Below the pieces are notes generated by a model. It saw nothing but the letters and a program-made list of their open reading frames with translations. It did not search any database and had not been told where the DNA came from. A program made the position numbers and the translations under genes. Source: Thermoplasmata archaeon (GTDB lineage Archaea; Thermoplasmatota; Thermoplasmata; Lutacidiplasmatales; UBA184). Taken from it: a DNA stretch of 49,743 bases. Every line of letters begins with the position of its first letter. Position 1 is the first letter of the stretch. The DNA lies in NCBI GenBank assembly GCA_022749895.1, contig JAKIWS010000011.1:1-49743 (forward strand), read 5' to 3'. Below are positions 11,541-45,101 of this stretch, piece after piece.

Positions 11541-11996
11541 GTGGCAACCGAGCCCTGCCGTTTTTGCGAACGGGTGCGGCATAGCCTATCGTTCCCGGGC
11601 GGGGTGGTCTACGAAGATGCCCACTTCCACGCCACGCTCTGGACCGGCGACGACCCCCGTTCGTACCTCGGCCAGTTGTTCGTCCAGTCCAAACGCCACG
11701 TTCCGTCGCTCGCCGAGCTGACCGTCGACGAGGGGGCGGCGCTCGGGGCCCTCATCCAGAAGCTTTCGAACGCGCTCCGCGACACGGTGCACCCCGAGCT
11801 CGTCTACCTCGACTGCTACATGGAGGTGGTCCGCCACGTGCACCTCTTCCTCACCGCCCGCTACCCGGGAACTCCGTCGGAATTTCTACGCTGGCGGGTG
11901 ACCGAATGGCCCGGCGCGCCGCACGGCGACCGAGCCCAGATCGACGTACTCGGAAATCGGCTCCGGAGCGTGCTCGCTCGAACGTCGACCGTGTAA
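11541..11996 (+). CDS. HIT-like family protein with N-terminal CxxC
   Basis: A 151-residue product resembling histidine-triad (HIT) proteins, which are nucleotidyl hydrolases or transferases. It starts with PCRFC (Cys6, Cys9), a possible zinc pair. VVYEDAHFHATL, SKRHVPSLAELTVDE and the final RHVHLFLTARY follow the HIT order. The triad is incomplete: His99 and His101 are present, but the third position is Phe103, so it differs from the standard HxHxH motif while keeping the middle nucleophilic His. The start is GTG. The gene runs opposite to all its neighbours and separates uL15 from secY, which are adjacent in most archaea. Confidence 0.7.
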   Translation: MATEPCRFCERVRHSLSFPGGVVYEDAHFHATLWTGDDPRSYLGQLFVQSKRHVPSLAELTVDEGAALGALIQKLSNALRDTVHPELVYLDCYMEVVRHVHLFLTARYPGTPSEFLRWRVTEWPGAPHGDRAQIDVLGNRLRSVLARTSTV

Positions 11997-27755: not shown

Positions 27756-27867
27756 GGGCCTGTAGCTTAGCCTGGACAAAGTACTGGCCTTCTAAGCCAG
27801 GTGTCTCGGGTTCAAAGGTCGCGAGCGCCCCCGCGCGGGCGGGCGGCGGAGAATCCCGACAGGCCCA
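27756..27867 (+). tRNA. tRNA-Arg(TCT) with intron in the T-loop
   Basis: The 5' acceptor strand GGGCCTG (27756-27762) pairs perfectly with CAGGCCC (27860-27866). The D stem is GCTT/AAGT. The anticodon stem CTGGC/GCCAG encloses loop CTTCTAA with anticodon TCT at 27791-27793. The T stem TCGGG (27806-27810) pairs perfectly with CCCGA (27855-27859), but the two strands are separated by 44 nt. Removing 27817-27853 restores the 7-nt T-loop TTCAAAT. The discriminator is A27867 and CCA is not encoded. The mature length is 75 nt. Because of the split T-loop, scanning tools may miss this gene or call it a pseudogene. Confidence 0.93.
27817..27853 (+). other. Non-canonical 37-nt tRNA intron (position 59/60)
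   Basis: The junctions fit a bulge-helix-bulge fold. After the T stem, UUC (27811-27813) can pair with GAG (27849-27851). A bulge AAG follows on the 5' side, with the cut after A27816. A bulge AAT lies on the 3' side, with the cut before T27854. The inner helix GUCGC (27818-27822) pairs with GCGGC (27843-27847). Cutting after the second bulge base on both sides gives exactly a standard T-loop. The central helix has only three pairs plus an A-G mismatch, so it is a relaxed motif. Confidence 0.82.
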
Positions 27868-27880
27868 CGCCGGATGGGGG

Positions 27881-28960
27881 TCAGGTGCTGGTGTCCGGCG
27901 TCGCGTCGACCTCGCGCGAGCATTTCTCGCAGAGGATGCCGCGGTGGGACGGGGGCAGCGGGTCGCCGCAGAGCGGGCAGGTCGCGCGCGAGTCGGCCGC
28001 CGCGAGCAGCTCCATGACGCTGGAACGCAGCGCCGGGTTCGGGAGCGGGGCGAGCGGTTCCACACTCCGGCGCGCGCGCTCGTCCGGGGTGAGGAATGCA
28101 TCGAGCCGACACCGGTAGATGCCGGTGCGCTTGTCGAAGGCGACGAGGCCCCGGGCGCGGAGACCTTCGAGCGTCGAGGTGACGAGCTCGCGGACCCCCC
28201 CGAGCACGTGCGTGAGGTCGATCGCCGGAAGGCCCCCGGTCTCGAACAGGACCTCGAGCACGCGTGACGCGAGGACCCCGGGCTCTTCGCGCGCCAGGTA
28301 GGTGTCGAGGCCGTGGGCCACCCGGGAGGATTGCCGCGTGCGCCGTGAGAGCGGGAGGCGGCCCGCTCGGACATCGGGCAACAGTTGACTGTCGACGAGG
28401 TCGAGTTCGAGTCGGCTACGTCCGTCCTCGCCGTAGGCGAGCAGCGCGGTCGCGAACGGGACCGTACCCGTCGTCCGGACGAAGTCGGCGAACTGCGGCC
28501 AGGTCATGAGGCCGGGGCGGACGGCCGGCGACAGATCGCCCGCGGTCGTGTCGTCGTTCGCGGAGCGCGGGTGATAATGGTCGCGGACCAAGAGGCGGAC
28601 GATCCACCGCTCGGAATCCGACGCGGCGCCGCCGGGGCGGGTCAGCGTGGCCGAGCTGTCCGGGCCGATGACGACGGTGCGGAGCGGAAGGACGAACTCC
28701 CAGACGGCGCCCGCCGCGGGGGGGTGGTCGATCGTCAGGCGGAGGTCCTCGAACAGGACCGAGTCGTCGAGCATCGCGTGGAGCACCGTCGGGAACGGTT
28801 TCCCGTCGATCTCGACCATGAACGGCGCGATCCGCGCCCGACGTCCGGCGAGGTACTCCTCCAGGGCCCGGCCGAGCGCCGCTTCCGAGTAGATGTCGTG
28901 GGCGCCCCGGGGCTCGTGGCGCGCGACCGAATTGAGCTCAGCCAACGTGGCGAGGGGCAC
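27881..28960 (-). CDS. Uncharacterised protein with C-terminal zinc ribbon
   Basis: A 359-residue soluble protein that I do not recognise. The C-terminus holds a clear zinc ribbon (Cys328, Cys331, Cys344, Cys347). Before it, a segment of about 80 residues (VLASRVLEVLFETGGLPAIDL through LEGLRARGLVAFDKRTGIYRC) looks like a winged helix. The N-terminal half is mixed alpha/beta with FVLPLRTVVIG. A DNA- or RNA-associated role is only a guess. Its start lies 23 nt inside the glycosyltransferase gene, so it is the last member of the mevalonate-associated operon. Confidence 0.65.
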   Translation of the reverse strand: MPLATLAELNSVARHEPRGAHDIYSEAALGRALEEYLAGRRARIAPFMVEIDGKPFPTVLHAMLDDSVLFEDLRLTIDHPPAAGAVWEFVLPLRTVVIGPDSSATLTRPGGAASDSERWIVRLLVRDHYHPRSANDDTTAGDLSPAVRPGLMTWPQFADFVRTTGTVPFATALLAYGEDGRSRLELDLVDSQLLPDVRAGRLPLSRRTRQSSRVAHGLDTYLAREEPGVLASRVLEVLFETGGLPAIDLTHVLGGVRELVTSTLEGLRARGLVAFDKRTGIYRCRLDAFLTPDERARRSVEPLAPLPNPALRSSVMELLAAADSRATCPLCGDPLPPSHRGILCEKCSREVDATPDTST

Positions 28961-30143
28961 GACCGGGTCTCTCCGTCAGTAGAAGCTCGTAGAGGGAGAT
29001 AAACCGTCGGGCGGTCGCCTCGATGGAGGCGTGCGCGCGGACGAAGTCGACTCCGTTCCGACCGAGTTGCCGGCGCCGGGTCGCATCGTCGAGGAGTTCG
29101 ATCATGGCCCCGACGAGCGCGGGCCGGTCGCGCGGGTCGACCTTCACGCCGGTGCGACCCTGCTCGACGATCTCCGCCGGGCCCCCCAGCGACGACGCCA
29201 GGACCGGGGTGCCGCAGGCCATCGCCTCGAGGAGGGCGATCGACGAGGTGTCGGAGGTCGATGGAAGGACGAAGAGGTCGCTCTGCCCGAGCAGCGCGGC
29301 CTTCTCGGCCTCGGCGACCGGTCCCACGTACCGCACCCGTTGCGCGAGCCGGGGTTCGGTGCGCAGCCGGCGTCGTACCTCGGCCTCCTCCGGCCCGCTT
29401 CCGCCCACGATCCCGACGACCGGCCGCTGGGCCGCGGCGTCGCCGACCGCGTCGAGGAATCGGTGGATCCCCTTGTCCTCGGTCAGCCGGCCGAGGTACG
29501 TGACCATCGGACCGTCGCCGAGGCCGCAGCGCTCGCGCCAATCCGGCACGGTGAGTCCGGGCCGGAACTCTTCCAAGTCGATCCCGTTCGGGACCACCTC
29601 GATCGGTCGATGGAACGGCTTCGACGCGTGCTCGAGGAGCGCGTCGCGGGCGGCGATCGTCGGCGCCGTCGTGAGGTCGCACCGCCAGTAGGTGCCGAGC
29701 GTCCACCGCCACGCGGACTGGAAGAACAGCCACGCGAGCGGGCCGCCCCCGAAGCTCCGGCGCATCTCCCAGACGTTCGTGTGGAAGGTACCGATGACTG
29801 GCTTCCGGTAGTAGCGCGACGCGAGGAAGCCGGTGCTCCCGACGACCCCCGGCGTGTGCAGATGGATCACGTCGATGTCCCGCAGGTGCTGGCCGTGGAG
29901 TTGCGCGACCGGAAAGAGGCCCCACCGATACTCGTGGTAGACCGGTACCGGCAACGACCGGACGTGAACGACCGGCACGCCGTCCACGCTCGTGGTCTCC
30001 GACGACGCCCCGACCACGGGGTGCGGCGCGAAGACGCGGACCTGGTGACCCAGGCGCTGCAGACACCGGGCGAGCCCGCTCACGACGGCGGAGACGCCGT
30101 CGCGCGTCGGAAGGTAGCTCTCCGTGAAGAAGGCGATCTCCAT
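28938..30143 (-). CDS. GT4-family glycosyltransferase
   Basis: A GT-B fold retaining glycosyltransferase of 401 residues. The N-terminal acceptor domain starts IAFFTESYLPTRDGVSAVV, with IHLHTPG and GTFHTNVW as in lipid glucosyl- and mannosyltransferases. The C-terminal donor domain has VPNGIDLEEFRPG, VTYLGRLTEDKG and SDTSSIALLEAMACGTPV, where the first acidic residue of the E-x7-E motif is Asp. This Asp form is common in diacylglycerol and phosphatidylinositol glycosyltransferases. No membrane helix is seen. Placement downstream of HMG-CoA synthase suggests a lipid or polyprenol acceptor, which is inference. Confidence 0.88.
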   Translation of the reverse strand: MEIAFFTESYLPTRDGVSAVVSGLARCLQRLGHQVRVFAPHPVVGASSETTSVDGVPVVHVRSLPVPVYHEYRWGLFPVAQLHGQHLRDIDVIHLHTPGVVGSTGFLASRYYRKPVIGTFHTNVWEMRRSFGGGPLAWLFFQSAWRWTLGTYWRCDLTTAPTIAARDALLEHASKPFHRPIEVVPNGIDLEEFRPGLTVPDWRERCGLGDGPMVTYLGRLTEDKGIHRFLDAVGDAAAQRPVVGIVGGSGPEEAEVRRRLRTEPRLAQRVRYVGPVAEAEKAALLGQSDLFVLPSTSDTSSIALLEAMACGTPVLASSLGGPAEIVEQGRTGVKVDPRDRPALVGAMIELLDDATRRRQLGRNGVDFVRAHASIEATARRFISLYELLLTERPGRAPRHVG

Positions 30144-30160
30144 CGACGCTCCGCGCGCTC

Positions 30161-30916
30161 CTACACCACCGAGGTGAACGCCCGCTGGAGCCGGTGGAGG
30201 TCCCCGTCGCTGAGCGTGCGCGGGTCGACACTGGCGACCACGACGGAGCCGGAGCGGCTCGCCTGGGTCGTGAGCCAGTTGACGAATTTCAACGTCGTCT
30301 CGAGGCCGAACTCCGTGACGAGGAACTCGATGCCGTCAAAGTAGACGAGCGCCCCCCCCTCGGCTTCGGTCGCTTCGCGGACCCGGCCGCCGATCTCGCC
30401 GGGCGCAGGACCGTGATCGTCGGGTCGCCCGCCCGGTCCGGAGGGTCCCAGTCGGACGACCTCGAGGCGTCCCGGCGGCAGGTCGCCGAACTCCGGGGGA
30501 TGGATCGAGATCGCGACGAGCCGGGGACGCTTGCTCGCGTTCTGCCGGACCATCTCGATCGCCCGGGCCGGCCGCTCCTCCCGCACGAGGTACGATTGGC
30601 CGAACACCACCGGAGCGGGGGGGGCCACGGCGGGGGCCGAGGGGGCGCGCGCCAGCGTCCCCCACGACGTTTTCGGGGGCGGAGCGAGGACGTTGCGGCG
30701 CTTGAACTCCACCTCTTCGGGAACGCGGGCCAGCCGGCTCTCGATGAACAGGCGCAGCTCCTGGGCCGTGTGCCCCCGCGAGACGTGCTGCAGCAGCTCC
30801 TTGAGCCCGTCCCTCAGCCCGTCGCCGAAGCCGTGGGCGTAGGCGTCCGCGAACGCCTCGTCCGGCGCCGACGGACGCCGAGGGAATCCGTCGCGGGACG
30901 GGGGGTCGCCGTTCAC
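30161..30916 (-). CDS. DUF835 domain protein
   Basis: A 251-residue protein. The C-terminal domain matches DUF835, frequent in Thermoplasmata and Thermococci: FGQSYLVREERPARAIEMV, ALVYFDGIEFLVTEFGLETTLKFVNWLT and SGSVVVASVDPRTLS. The fold resembles a degenerate RecA-like or KaiC-like domain but has no P-loop. The N-terminal 80 residues are charged and helical. The ATG overlaps the DUF35 stop as ATGA, so it is translationally coupled to the mevalonate genes. Confidence 0.82.
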   Translation of the reverse strand: MNGDPPSRDGFPRRPSAPDEAFADAYAHGFGDGLRDGLKELLQHVSRGHTAQELRLFIESRLARVPEEVEFKRRNVLAPPPKTSWGTLARAPSAPAVAPPAPVVFGQSYLVREERPARAIEMVRQNASKRPRLVAISIHPPEFGDLPPGRLEVVRLGPSGPGGRPDDHGPAPGEIGGRVREATEAEGGALVYFDGIEFLVTEFGLETTLKFVNWLTTQASRSGSVVVASVDPRTLSDGDLHRLQRAFTSVV

Positions 30917-31392
30917 GCGCGCGCGGATTCCGGTGGTACGGGGGACGGTTCAGGGTCCCGCGTGCGCCGCGGCCCCGAGTGCCACTCGTCCATCGGGGCG
31001 AACTTGTAGCCGTAGTGGATCACGCCAGCGCGTCCCTCTTCCCGGAGCTTGCGGAACGTCGCGCGGACCTTGAGCCCGATCGCGACGTCGCCCGGCGCGA
31101 CGTCGACGACCTGCCCCGTGAGCATCGGACCCTCGGTCGTCTTCACGATGGCGAGGACGTACGGGACCTGCATCTCGAACCCCTCCGCCGCGTCGTGGAT
31201 GACCGAGAACGTCACGACCTCCCCGTCGCCGGAGAGCGTGAACGGCTCCATCTTGCCGATCGACCGCCGGTGGTTGGCGCAGGAGGGGCAGACCGAACGC
31301 GGGGGGAAGTAGACGGTCGAGCAGACGGCGCACTGGCTGCCCCCGAGGTTGTACCGCCGGGGCGACTCCCGCCAGAATCGTGCGATCGACAT
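30913..31392 (-). CDS. DUF35 OB-fold protein with zinc ribbon, thiolase/HMG-CoA synthase partner
   Basis: A 159-residue protein with a rubredoxin-like zinc ribbon (Cys21, Cys24, Cys35, Cys38) and an OB fold (GEVVTFSVIHDAAEGFEMQVPYVLAIV, EGPMLTGQVVD, IGLKVRATFRK). In archaea this family holds acetoacetyl-CoA thiolase and HMG-CoA synthase together and channels CoA intermediates. Gene order here is HMG-CoA synthase, thiolase homologue, DUF35, as expected. It starts 7 nt after the thiolase stop. The C-terminus is Pro-rich. Confidence 0.92.
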   Translation of the reverse strand: MSIARFWRESPRRYNLGGSQCAVCSTVYFPPRSVCPSCANHRRSIGKMEPFTLSGDGEVVTFSVIHDAAEGFEMQVPYVLAIVKTTEGPMLTGQVVDVAPGDVAIGLKVRATFRKLREEGRAGVIHYGYKFAPMDEWHSGPRRTRDPEPSPVPPESARA

Positions 31393-31399
31393 CTTCCCT

Positions 31400-32572
31400 C
31401 TAGTTCACCCGTTCGAAGATATGGACGACGCTCGTGGCGCCGGTGCCGCCCACGTCGTGCGCGAGCGCCACCCTCGCCCCGGCCTGCTGCCGTTCCTTCG
31501 CTTCGCCGCGGAGCTGCCGCACGAGCTCGACCGCCTGCGCGACCCCGACGGCGCCGAACGGACGCCCCTGGGCCTTCATCCCACCCGACGTGTTCACCGC
31601 GAGCTTGCCCGCGCCCGGTGCGAGGTGGCCCTCCGCGAACTCCGGGCCGGCTTCGCCCTTGGCGACGAACCCCAGGTCTTCCATCGCGACGAGCGCGCTG
31701 ATCGAGTAGGCGTCAAAGATCTCCGCGACGTTCACATCGCGCGGGAGCCGGTGCGCCTGGGCGAACGCCCGCTTCGCGGCGACGACGGTGGAATCGAGGG
31801 TCGTGATCTCCCGACGGTGATGGACCGCCATAACGTCGCACGCGAGCTGGCTCGCCGAGATCTGGACCGGCGTGTCGGTGAACTTCCGCGCGCGGTCGAG
31901 CGGGCCGAGGACGACCGCCGCAGCGCCGTCGGAGTACGGTGCGCAGTCGAGCATCCCGAGGGGCTCGGCGACCGGCGTCGCCTTCATGACGCCCTCGACG
32001 GTCAGCAAGTTGCGATAGTGCGCATTCGGGTTCTTCGAGCCCATCGCGTGGTCGTGCACCGGCACGCTCGCGAGTTGCTCGCGCGTCGTGCCAAAGTCGT
32101 GCATGTGCCGCCGGGCGATCATCGCCCACAGGCCGGGCAGCGTCGCGCCGAAGACGGCCTCCCACTCGTGGTCGGCGGTGCCGCCGACGACGCGGTCCGC
32201 CTCCGCTTCGGGAACGTCCGTGAGCTTCTCCGCCCCGCCGACGACGACGAAATCGTGCGCCCCGCTCGCCACGGCGAGGTACCCCTGGTGCAGCGCGACC
32301 GCCCCCGACGCGCTCCCGGCCTCCACCCGCACGGCGGCGAGGTGGCGCCCGGAAAGCCCCGCGTAGTCGAGGATCAACGGCGCGATGTGCTCCTGGCTGA
32401 TCAGGCTCCCGCTCGCCATGTTGCCGAGATACAGCGCGCCGAGGTCCGCGCTCGATAGCTTCGCGTCGACGAGCGCCTGGAGCCCGGCCTCGATCCCGAT
32501 CTCCCGGAACGACCGGTCCCACAGTTCGCCGAACCGGGTCATCCCGACGCCAAGGATCGCGACCTCGCGCAC
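31400..32572 (-). CDS. Thiolase-superfamily protein (acetoacetyl-CoA thiolase homologue) lacking usual catalytic residues
   Basis: A 390-residue thiolase fold of the archaeal SCP2-like type, in the operon position of acetoacetyl-CoA thiolase, which supplies HMG-CoA synthase. Catalytic positions deviate. The nucleophile Cys position reads VEAGSASG with Ser87 (codon AGC). The His of the HDxF motif is Phe286 in EIFDAY. The GHP His is Arg337 in GGMKAQGRPFG (codon CGT). The final loop is AHDVGGTG without Cys. A Ser nucleophile is known to me for haloarchaeal thiolases, but those keep both His. The protein may be structural, or use other chemistry. It lies 3 nt after HMG-CoA synthase. Confidence 0.88.
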   Translation of the reverse strand: MREVAILGVGMTRFGELWDRSFREIGIEAGLQALVDAKLSSADLGALYLGNMASGSLISQEHIAPLILDYAGLSGRHLAAVRVEAGSASGAVALHQGYLAVASGAHDFVVVGGAEKLTDVPEAEADRVVGGTADHEWEAVFGATLPGLWAMIARRHMHDFGTTREQLASVPVHDHAMGSKNPNAHYRNLLTVEGVMKATPVAEPLGMLDCAPYSDGAAAVVLGPLDRARKFTDTPVQISASQLACDVMAVHHRREITTLDSTVVAAKRAFAQAHRLPRDVNVAEIFDAYSISALVAMEDLGFVAKGEAGPEFAEGHLAPGAGKLAVNTSGGMKAQGRPFGAVGVAQAVELVRQLRGEAKERQQAGARVALAHDVGGTGATSVVHIFERVN

Positions 32573-32575
32573 GGC

Positions 32576-33628
32576 TCACTCCTCCGCCATGTTGATCTTG
32601 CCCCGGAACTTCGCGTAGACGGCGTACGGCAGCTCGACCCCGTTGTCGAGGAACTCCTGCACGGGTAGCCCGTACGAGTGGTCGAACCGGGCGAGCTCGT
32701 CGGTGGTCTCGAGGTCGAACGCGTCCGACCCCGCGCCGCTTCCGTAGCCGACCACCAGGACGCGTTGGCCGGGCTGCGCGACGTCGAGGACGTTCGCGAG
32801 GCCGATCAAGGCCGCCCCGGAGTACGTGTTCCCGATGTACGGCGTGACGAGCCCGTAGCGCATCTGCGCGTCGGTGAACCCTAGCTGCTTCCCGACGCGC
32901 TGCGGGAACTTCCCGTTCGGCTGGTGGAAGACGACGTGGGCGTAATCCTTCGGCTCGGTCCCGGCCCGGTCGAACATCGCCCGAGCGCACTCCGTCACGT
33001 GGCGGAAGTACGCGGGCTCCCCGGTGAATCGGCCGCCGTGGCTCGGATACCGTTGACCCTCCCGGCGCCAGAAGTCGGGGGTGTCCGTCGTGTACGAGAG
33101 CGTGTGGCGGATGTACGCGATCACGCGGTCTCGGCCGATCACGAACGCCGCGCCGCCGGCGCTCGCGGAGTACTCGAGCGCGTCGCCGGGCGCTCCTTGC
33201 GACGTGTCCGAGCCGATCGCGACGCCGTACTTGATCATCCCCGAAGCGACGAGGCCGAGGCAACTCTGGATCGCCGCCGTCCCGGCCTTGCACGCGAACT
33301 CGAAATCGGCGGCCGTCAGGTTCGGCGTCGCTCCGATCGCTTGGGCGACCACGGTCGCCGTCGGCTTCACGGCGTAGGGATGCGACTCGCTCCCGACGTA
33401 GAGGGCGCCGATTTCCTGCGGGTTGATGCCGCCACGAACGAGGGCGATGCGAAGGGCCTCGGTGCTGATCGTGATCGTATCCTCGTCCGGGGCCGGAACG
33501 CTCTTGCGGTGGACGTTGAGTCCCTGGCCCATCGCGACGCCGTCGACGCCCCAGACGCGGCCGATCTCCTCGGGAGTTATCCGGTACCGTGGGACGTATG
33601 CGCCGTAACTGACGATCCCCGCCTCCAT
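32576..33628 (-). CDS. Hydroxymethylglutaryl-CoA synthase
   Basis: Condenses acetyl-CoA with acetoacetyl-CoA to HMG-CoA in the archaeal mevalonate route to isoprenoid lipids. It has 350 residues, as in other archaea. The catalytic set is intact: Glu81 in [11 protein letters not shown], Cys113 in [11 protein letters not shown] and His235 in [27 protein letters not shown] and [13 protein letters not shown] are further signatures. The start at 33628 has GGAGG about 10 nt upstream; ATG 33637 is an alternative but sits directly against that element. The HTH regulator gene ends 14 nt upstream, suggesting co-transcription. Confidence 0.95.
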
Positions 33629-33642
33629 CGCGCCCATACCTC

Positions 33643-34320
33643 CTACATCTCCTCCAACCGTTCGAGGACCGTCGGAGCCCTCAACGACGTGGTGAGGAGC
33701 GGAAGGTTCTCGATCTCGCTCAGCCGGATCGCGAGCGGGTCGATCCGCCCCGGGGCCGAGAAGATGACCGCGGCGGGCTTGAGCGGATGCGCCCGGATCG
33801 CGACCATGGGGGAGCGACCGTACTTCACGTTCGCGAAGATGAGGACGCGCTGCGTCGACCAGCCGTACACCTCGACGAACCTCGAGGCGTCGATGGAGAG
33901 GATCGCCCGTGGCGCGTCCAGGATGGTGTAGCCGTGGATATCGCGGTGGAGGTCGACGCGGCTCACCGGCTTGGCGTCGAGCGCGTCCGCGAGCGACTTG
34001 AGCGGGATCGCGATCGAGAACTCCCGGAGTCCGAGGATGCCATCGGAGTGCGTCTTCACTCCGAGCCGCTGGCCGACCCGTCCCCCGTGGGCGGCGTCGA
34101 CCTCGACGAGCGCGTCCACGTACCGCCGGATGAACGCCGCCCCCGGGCTCATCCGCCGTTCCGACTCGTAGTCGGAGACGACGCTCGGGACGGTCGTAAG
34201 ATGCTTCGCGAGATCGCGCTGCGAGATCCCGAAATCCTCGCGCCACTTCCGCAGCGTCCGGCCCGGGTGGGAGGAGAGGACCACCTCCCCGGCGATCTTT
34301 TCCTTAAGGTCGGCCTCCAC
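33643..34320 (-). CDS. HTH transcriptional regulator heading the mevalonate operon
   Basis: A 225-residue archaeal XRE-type regulator. The N-terminal helix-turn-helix spans about residues 30-55 ([24 protein letters not shown]). The C-terminal part ([52 protein letters not shown]) is a conserved domain that this family carries, often beside HMG-CoA synthase. The frame continues upstream, but a TTTATAG box lies 26 nt before the GTG at 34320 and the family N-terminus ([17 protein letters not shown]) starts there, so this start is chosen. An autoregulator of the operon is a reasonable inference. Confidence 0.88.
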
Positions 34321-34342
34321 CGGAAGCTCCGAGAATTCCGCG

Positions 34343-34350
34343 CTATAAAG
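34343..34350 (-). promoter_or_regulatory. TATA box of the HTH/HMG-CoA synthase operon
   Basis: CTTTATAG on the minus strand, 23-30 nt upstream of the GTG at 34320. It predicts a leaderless transcript and argues against the longer upstream starts at 34389 and 34395. Confidence 0.6.
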
Positions 34351-34422
34351 CGTTGAGTCTGCATGTCGTCCGGGGGGTTCGACAGTCATCGACATCGCCC
34401 GGCGCAGTGATGGGCGGTGGAG

Positions 34423-34529
34423 TGGACCGGGCGAGAGCTTCCGGCGTCCGGGAGACGGATCCCAGTCACCCTTTGAACTCGCGGCCTCTACCTTGCCAAG
34501 GTAGCGATCTTCCGCTGATCTACCGGCCC
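34423..34529 (-). tRNA. tRNA-Ala(GGC) with intron in the T-loop
   Basis: On the minus strand the acceptor GGGCCGG (34529-34523) pairs with CCGGTCC (34430-34424), including a G3-U70 wobble, the alanine identity element. The D stem is GATC/GATC. The anticodon stem CTACC/GGTAG encloses TTGGCAA with anticodon GGC (34497-34495). The T stem GCGAG (34482-34478) pairs with CTCGC (34435-34431), but the strands are separated by the intron. Removing 34437-34471 leaves T-loop TTCAAAT. The discriminator A is at 34423 and CCA is not encoded. The plus strand of the anticodon hairpin mimics a GCC anticodon but lacks a T arm. Confidence 0.93.
34437..34471 (-). other. Non-canonical 35-nt tRNA intron (position 59/60)
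   Basis: UUC of the T-loop (34477-34475) pairs with GAA (34441-34439), flanked by the bulges AAG (cut after 34472) and GCU (cut before 34436). The inner helix GGUG (34470-34467) pairs with CGCC (34446-34443), and a GGGA/TCCC hairpin caps the intron. Bulge positions and the A-G mismatch match those of the tRNA-Arg intron 7 kb away. Confidence 0.82.
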
Positions 34530-44079: not shown

Positions 44080-45101
44080 GCGTGGAGGCCTCCGTCGCTC
44101 GGACCGTTGCGCGGGACCGTCGACCGCCCCCCGCCGACGCGCTCGGGGCCAGCCGGTACGTCAACCTCTGGTCGGAGCCCGAAGCGATCGGGACGCGCCG
44201 CGTCCGCGCCTTCGTGCTGATCCTCCGGACCCGTGGCTGCTACTGGGCCGATGTGAAGGGCTGCTCGATGTGCGGCTACGCGAAGGACACCCTGGGTCGC
44301 TCGGCGACGCCGGCGGAACTGGCCCACCAGCTGAACGCGGCGCTCGCCCGGTACCGCGACGAACCGTACGTGAAGCTGTACACGTCGGGGAGCTTCCTGG
44401 ACGACCGGGAGGTCGACGCGGAGTCGCGCCGGGCGATCGTCGCCGCCTTCGCGGGTCGCGCCGAGCGCCTCCTCTTCGAGACCCTTCCCGAATTCGCGAC
44501 GCCCGCGACGCTCGCTCCGCTGATCAGCGCCTTCCCCGGCACCCTCGAGGTGGCGGAAGGGCTGGAGTCGACCCAGGAGTACGTACTCCGTCGGCTGATC
44601 AACAAGGGGGCGAATCCGGTCGATTACTTCGAAGCCGCTGATCGGATCCGAGAGGCGGGAGCGAGCCCGAAGGGCTACCTCCTCCTCAAACCCCCATATC
44701 TCACCGAACGCGAGGCCGTCGCCGACGTCGTGCGGTCGGTCGAAGTCGCGGCGCCGCGCTTCGACACGTTGTCGGTGAACCCCGTCCATATCCAGAACGG
44801 GACGACGGTGGAATGGCTGTACCGACGCGGCCGGTATCGACCCCCGTGGCTGTGGAGCCTGAACGACGCGATGATCCAGGGCGCCGCGCGACGCGGCCGC
44901 GCCCGCCTCGTCACCTTCCCCACCGCCGGAGGACTCCCGCGCGGTCCCCACAACTGCGGCGAGTGTGACGCCCGCGTCCTGGCGGCGTTGGAGAGCGCGT
45001 CATTGGACCAGACGTTCGACGAGCTCGCGAACCTGGCGTGCCCGTGCCGGACGACGTGGGCGACCACGAGCGCGCTCGAGCCGGCGGGCGTGGTGGCGTG
45101 A
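44076..45101 (+). CDS. Radical SAM protein of the archaeosine synthase (RaSEA) type
   Basis: A 341-residue radical SAM enzyme. The cluster ligands are Cys55, Cys63 and Cys66 in RGCYWADVKGCSMCGY (Cx7Cx2C). KLYTSGSFLDD, ETLPEFATPA, LEVAEGLESTQEYVLRRLINKG and GYLLLKPPYLTEREA match the archaeal/ELP3-like family that acts with ArcS on lysine-preQ0 tRNA to make archaeosine at position 15. The assignment rests on family resemblance; archaeosine itself is not shown. The start GTG overlaps the ribK stop (GTGA); GTG 44082 is an alternative. The C-terminus has a Cys pair (ACPC) of unknown role. Confidence 0.86.
   Translation: MSVEASVARTVARDRRPPPADALGASRYVNLWSEPEAIGTRRVRAFVLILRTRGCYWADVKGCSMCGYAKDTLGRSATPAELAHQLNAALARYRDEPYVKLYTSGSFLDDREVDAESRRAIVAAFAGRAERLLFETLPEFATPATLAPLISAFPGTLEVAEGLESTQEYVLRRLINKGANPVDYFEAADRIREAGASPKGYLLLKPPYLTEREAVADVVRSVEVAAPRFDTLSVNPVHIQNGTTVEWLYRRGRYRPPWLWSLNDAMIQGAARRGRARLVTFPTAGGLPRGPHNCGECDARVLAALESASLDQTFDELANLACPCRTTWATTSALEPAGVVA

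Follow-up and report, generated by a model that had tools for sequence, protein, structure and literature searches.

Position 59/60 is among the non-canonical intron sites of archaeal tRNA genes reviewed in PMC4090602, which cites Sugahara 2008 and Fujishima 2010 for the introns of the Thermoproteales. The same review names the subunit type of the splicing endonuclease EndA as the determinant of substrate range, and according to it Euryarchaeota with an α4 or α2 enzyme carry introns in fewer than 10% of their tRNA genes and at the canonical position only. Non-canonical introns are described as almost exclusively crenarchaeal (PMC3218864). One intron model was trained on Crenarchaeota and Euryarchaeota together (PMC8450103), and some euryarchaeal cases must therefore already be known. 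Homodimeric enzymes also cut BHL-like motifs (PMC8707768), which softens their label as 'strict'. The CSL and ASL have been linked to diverse introns (PMC12397907), and the M. kandleri EndA, without CSL and ASL, is of constrained specificity (PMC6379350).

The non-canonical bulge-helix-bulge (BHB) introns of Crenarchaeota resemble those described below in the 59/60 site, the BHB motif, their shortness and the possibility of several per tRNA. They differ in that here nearly all non-canonical introns occupy one site and form a set that is orthologous across a genus, that the introns of different tRNAs are not alike, and that EndA is a single two-repeat gene. The Asgard Atabeyarchaeia and Freyarchaeia also live in soil and are likewise rich in non-canonical tRNA introns, but they carry introns in 92-95% of their tRNA genes, over half of them several (PMC11291895), as against 18 of the 41 genes here, which hold 19 introns. 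No earlier account of 59/60 introns in Thermoplasmatota was found in the search listings of an open-access literature collection.

The window is the whole stretch of 49,743 nucleotides that was analysed (contig JAKIWS010000011.1) and belongs to a MAG of 106 contigs that is 83% complete. UBA184 is assigned to the Lutacidiplasmatales in PMC9287336, in the available portion of which the word 'intron' is absent, and the genome analysed is taken to be a member of that order or a neighbour of it. The window contains two intron-bearing tRNA genes:

27756-27867, plus strand: tRNA-Arg(TCT) gene with intron; discriminator base A at 27867, CCA not encoded
27817-27853, plus strand: Arg(TCT) intron of 37 nt at 59/60; last six bases GGAGAA
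34529-34423, minus strand: tRNA-Ala(GGC) gene with intron; G3:U70 pair present
34471-34437, minus strand: Ala(GGC) intron of 35 nt at 59/60 after TTCAAA; last six bases GGAAGC

The 5' exon of the Arg(TCT) gene ends in TTCAAA, with nucleotide 59 as its last base, and the 3' exon starts with T60. Its splice site has a central helix TTC(54-56):GAG with the mismatch A57.G, bulges AA^G and AA^T, and an inner helix GTCGC:GCGGC. The Ala(GGC) counterpart has a central helix TTC:GAA, again with A57.G, bulges AA^G and GC^T, and an inner helix GGTG:CGCC. After intron removal all 12 pairs of the acceptor and T-stems form in both genes; in 20 mononucleotide shuffles of the window, a downstream partner that gives 12/12 pairs and has a pyrimidine at 60 turns up about 0.004 (Arg) and 0.0025 (Ala) times per 120 positions. 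The statement of an earlier note that both tRNA genes of the window carry a 59/60 intron, of 37 and 35 nt, is thus confirmed. ARAGORN finds no tRNA in the window as a whole and recognises both genes in their spliced form; from the unspliced genes it missed Ala in 2/2 runs and reported Arg in 1/2. The Rfam tRNA model (cut-off 29 bits) gives 31.7 bits for Arg and 24.9, below the cut-off, for Ala, and model R2, partly trained on these same two genes, matches them with E-values of 2.3e-19 and 2.5e-16. In the rest of the window R2 has two weak matches alone, with E-values of 0.036 (11726-11813, minus strand) and 4.4. A weak CRISPR-DR20 match at 44716-44752 (24.6 bits, the cut-off being 42) is probably due to chance.

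It is proposed that these are archaeal BHB tRNA introns fixed at 59/60, and that the set to which they belong was inherited from before the genus diversified, a reading whose probability is put at about 0.87. In the precursor, T-loop bases 54-57 would pair with intron bases -6 to -3; A58, A59 and intron base 1 would make up the first three-nucleotide bulge, and intron bases -2 and -1 with nucleotide 60 the second, and an inner helix would be formed by intron base 2 onward with -7 backward. The T-loop would be restored through cleavage of both bulges by EndA and joining of the exons by RtcB. As the T-loop cannot form in the unspliced transcript, splicing would be expected to come before end processing and T-loop modification. 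The BHB reading is backed by the 12/12 pairs, by covariation between positions 57 and -6, by the orthologous set and by the presence of EndA and RtcB genes, and these sequence features suggest that the 59/60 introns are spliced, that is excised and the exons ligated.

The covariation was examined in 220 parsed introns, from which loci L330 and L337 (T-loop TCCGAA) and L368 were left out; L024 was read by eye. The splice site appears to be a BHB in which exon bases 54-57 pair with the 3' end of the intron. G57 lies opposite C at -6 in 102/111 cases, and A57 lies opposite C in 1/109, opposite G in 77 and opposite U in 30 (Fisher p 1e-50, related sequences being treated as independent). Where orthologues differ by A or G at 57, as the Asn, Arg(TCT) and Asp genes do, position -6 changes as well, such that C accompanies G57 in most (one Asn has A) and G or U accompanies A57 in all. 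A57.G is characteristic of the family: it accounts for 59/69 of the A57 introns in the genus, 15/19 in other genera of the family and 3/21 elsewhere in the class, where A57:U prevails (18/21). All four central pairs are present in 7 of the 13 59/60 introns of the window's genome, the other six, including both window introns, having three pairs and A57.G. The incomplete central helices of many of these introns speak against the BHB reading; four pairs are found in 60/128 introns of the genus, 13/30 of the other family genera, 48/52 of the class and order and 5/10 of the distant Poseidon-type genomes G096 and G153 of the same phylum; the remaining genus introns have three pairs (66/128, mostly with the A57.G mismatch) or two (2/128). 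Pairing of i2 with -7, the first pair of the inner helix, is seen in 116/128, 25/30, 40/48 (class) and 10/10, respectively. Read by eye, D-loop introns of Lys(TTT) follow the same pairing logic, with TAGG:CCTA in most and CCGG:CCGG in genomes G001, G002 and G029.

The genome yields 41 tRNA genes with an anticodon, of which 40 are matches to the Rfam tRNA model and one, Pro(GGG), was added by model R1. Introns of 26-38 nt at 59/60 occur in 13, namely Ala(GGC), Arg(TCG), Arg(TCT), Asn, Asp, Gln(CTG), Glu(CTC), Gly(TCC), His, Lys(TTT), Ser(CGA), Ser(GCT) and Ser(GGA), and no intronless copy of these isoacceptors is among the 41 genes found. In all 13 the intron is flanked by standard T-loop bases and full stems, and excision gives 12/12 acceptor and T-stem pairs. 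Nine score below the Rfam cut-off, and tRNA counts used to judge such genomes can therefore be too low. D-loop introns are present in Arg(GCG) and Lys(TTT), the latter thus having two introns, and an anticodon-loop intron interrupts Tyr, one Met, Leu(TAA) and, on reading by eye, Trp. Overall 44% of the genes are interrupted, and 15 of the 19 introns are non-canonical. Pro(TGG), Val(CAC), Leu(TAG), Arg(CCT) and a third CAT gene were not found in the 83%-complete assembly, which may reflect its incompleteness or genes hidden by introns. The Arg(GCG) gene with the D-loop intron lies at L033 (minus strand, 165-270), and the Arg(CCG) genes of G045, G052 and G060 also have a long D region. The doubly interrupted Lys(TTT) gene lies at L042 (134-276), and a D-loop intron besides the 59/60 intron is also seen in several other genomes of the class.

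The same 13 isoacceptors carry the intron throughout the genus. Relatives were searched with a model trained on intron-bearing tRNAs, intronless copies lying outside what it lists, and for the genus all 115 long R2 matches among those listed were fetched. The window's genome and nine relatives (some of those at least 91% complete among 36 same-genus genomes) have the intron in 127/130 genome-isoacceptor cells, the three not found being two in G033, Asn and Ser(CGA), and one in G026, Ser(GGA); in G022 Asn is represented by two genes. A long D region in Lys(TTT), corresponding to the D-loop intron, is present in 10/10 genomes of the genus. In four genomes from three further genera of the same family (G129, G220, G140 and G088) 34 of 36 matches could be read, all within the 13-isoacceptor set; L345, L347, L355 and L359 are counted among these 34 and lie outside the 220-intron motif set. 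Beyond the family, 21 of 24 class genomes (three of the 24 from the same order) have at least one to eight 59/60 introns each, most commonly in Lys(TTT), Arg(TCT) and Arg(CCG), and none was read in G044, G051 and G055 among the matches listed. At least 45 of 196 genomes sampled from the phylum, with 20 candidates scored per genome, have an R2 match at E<=1e-12. Of 27 new loci fetched from these genomes, 26 could be read as 59/60 introns, and Arg(TCT) in a single family, f8, accounts for 12. Out of 3685 first-look candidates 150 were scored with model R1, which did not recover 4/13 of the genome's own genes, so that the counts in relatives are lower bounds. As the same isoacceptors recur across genus and family, the set looks inherited and not recently spread; it presumably predates the radiation of the genus and, for the most part, that of the family. 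The introns of Lys(TTT), Arg(TCT) and perhaps of Arg(CCG) type look older than the others. G153 has the same 59/60 intron in two Lys(TTT) genes on two contigs (L429 and L430).

The EndA gene of the window's genome (C28:1257-2216) encodes two PF01974 repeats in one frame; the stretch analysed comprises 320 residues, and since the frame extends upstream the real protein is longer. No further PF01974 match, as a second endA or separate subunit gene would give, was found in this 83%-complete genome. Both repeats share one frame in 7 of eight genomes examined, the first repeat of G051 falling below the cut-off, and G096 has no PF01974 match above it. Y258, H266 and K297 are invariant in 29 aligned rows, and Y258 and H266 are taken here to be catalytic residues, as is K297 by its alignment with K287 of A. 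fulgidus. The enzyme looks like the α'2 type, with two repeats in one chain and the catalytic residues in the second. It shares this organisation with A. fulgidus EndA (2gjw, 1r0v), to which it is 30-31% identical, and differs from it by about 14 additional residues, a PRGG-KTP stretch, in the first repeat. The monomer model (pLDDT 93.8) has as its best match, by fold (TM 0.87) and by sequence, the fused M. kandleri EndA 5x89, followed by E-value by the A. fulgidus CSL chimera 3p1y (TM 0.77) and A. fulgidus 2gjw (0.79). The α'2 label calls for caution as a fused (αβ)2 enzyme ranks first by fold; the native M. kandleri enzyme is described as having two subunits, in contrast to the one gene here. 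Broad-specificity enzymes with a CSL (A. pernix) or ASL (ARMAN-2) also belong to lineages with many non-canonical introns, but no such loop is present here: seven residues separate YGS from LSL, as in A. fulgidus 1r0v, compared with 17 in 3p1y, and 29/29 aligned sequences show no gap or insertion at the site of the CSL/ASL lysine loop. The PRGG-KTP stretch was considered as a correlate of T-loop introns and dropped. Among the 29 rows it is absent from G051, which has no 59/60 intron found, and it occurs without its lysine in G056 (one such intron) and G044 (none found), so that no case can be made. RtcB is encoded at C71:3323-4627 (E 3.3e-174). Among the best 80 of 176 matches, the EndA of Thermoplasmata archaeon AcS5-107 shares 90% identity with the one described here and the EndA of UBA184 66%; a 67% identical EndA belongs to a record titled 'bacterium' (L095), probably a mislabelled archaeal MAG.

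The earlier note envisaged serial spread of an intron into a common target, served by a splicing endonuclease of relaxed specificity. Read as recent spread into TTCRAA with a heteromeric or loop-extended enzyme, this is improbable, even though all the introns share one insertion site, gains or losses must have occurred to produce the different composition seen beyond the family (Lys, Arg-CCG, Ala-CGC and others), and G038 has eight short A+T-rich 59/60 introns. Recent copying should make different introns of a genome alike, but the mean identity between introns of different isoacceptors is 0.618 within genomes (n=745) and 0.617 between them (n=6698), which gives no sign of it, whereas orthologous introns compared across genomes reach a mean of 0.684 (n=532, with two pairs of closely related genomes omitted). 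Shuffled introns average 0.576, and their highest value, 0.79, is also the highest within genomes; the excess over shuffled introns in both classes of unlike pairs fits common intron ends. The analogy with crenarchaeal intron transposition is not supported either, as its Thermoproteales hallmark, close similarity between introns that sit in different tRNAs of a genome, was not found among the introns compared, and the constancy of the 13 isoacceptors in the genus also argues against recent spread. Nor is a relaxed enzyme supported: the endA gene could be identified as the note had advised, but it proved to be a single two-repeat gene without a Crenarchaea-type lysine loop in place of a heteromeric or extended form, and the motif is a full or near-full BHB. 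In G096 the same 45-nt 59/60 intron occurs in Arg(CCT) and a second tRNA, probably Gly (L422 and L425), a possible recent copy outside the family of the window's genome.

That the insert is kept, giving a mature tRNA with an enlarged T-loop, or is removed by another nuclease, is very improbable: covariation across the exon-intron border and the BHB geometry fit EndA, the T-loop bases and stems are standard on both sides in all genes, and both EndA and RtcB are encoded. That the genes are artefacts of assembly, or tRNA-like sequences that have decayed or arisen by chance, is barely credible: the fragmentary MAG and the nine sub-threshold genes could suggest it, but the full stems in 13/13 genes, the lack of intronless copies among the 41 genes found and the same genes in nine relatives led to rejection of the chance or pseudogene reading. 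The earlier note had held that its case would fall if most tRNA genes lacked a T-loop insertion and the two were chance; 28/41 do lack one, but the 13 are clearly not chance. Its lineage-wide T-loop intron system accordingly survives as a constant set across the genus and not as a property of every tRNA.

The inherited set of BHB introns leaves room for an ancient burst, because introns this short and fast-changing would lose the traces of copying. It is tentatively suggested, at odds somewhat below even, that one-site introns entered about a dozen tRNAs of the family ancestor in the presence of an α'2-type EndA without CSL or ASL loop, and that exon and intron have since changed together, A57:U(-6) giving way for the most part to A57.G(-6). 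If so, splicing would be a fixed checkpoint before T-loop formation in a third of the tRNAs, and the rule that ties such enzymes to canonical-position introns only would be broken. The feature, which the earlier note thought might be undescribed in this lineage, is of a known kind, since 59/60 introns are on record (PMC4090602); what departs from the published rule is that so many occur at one site alongside a loop-less two-repeat EndA. If confirmed, this would mean that the possible positions of introns are limited by the motif and not by the class of enzyme, and introns with A57.G would be ready substrates for testing the tolerance of loop-less EndA.
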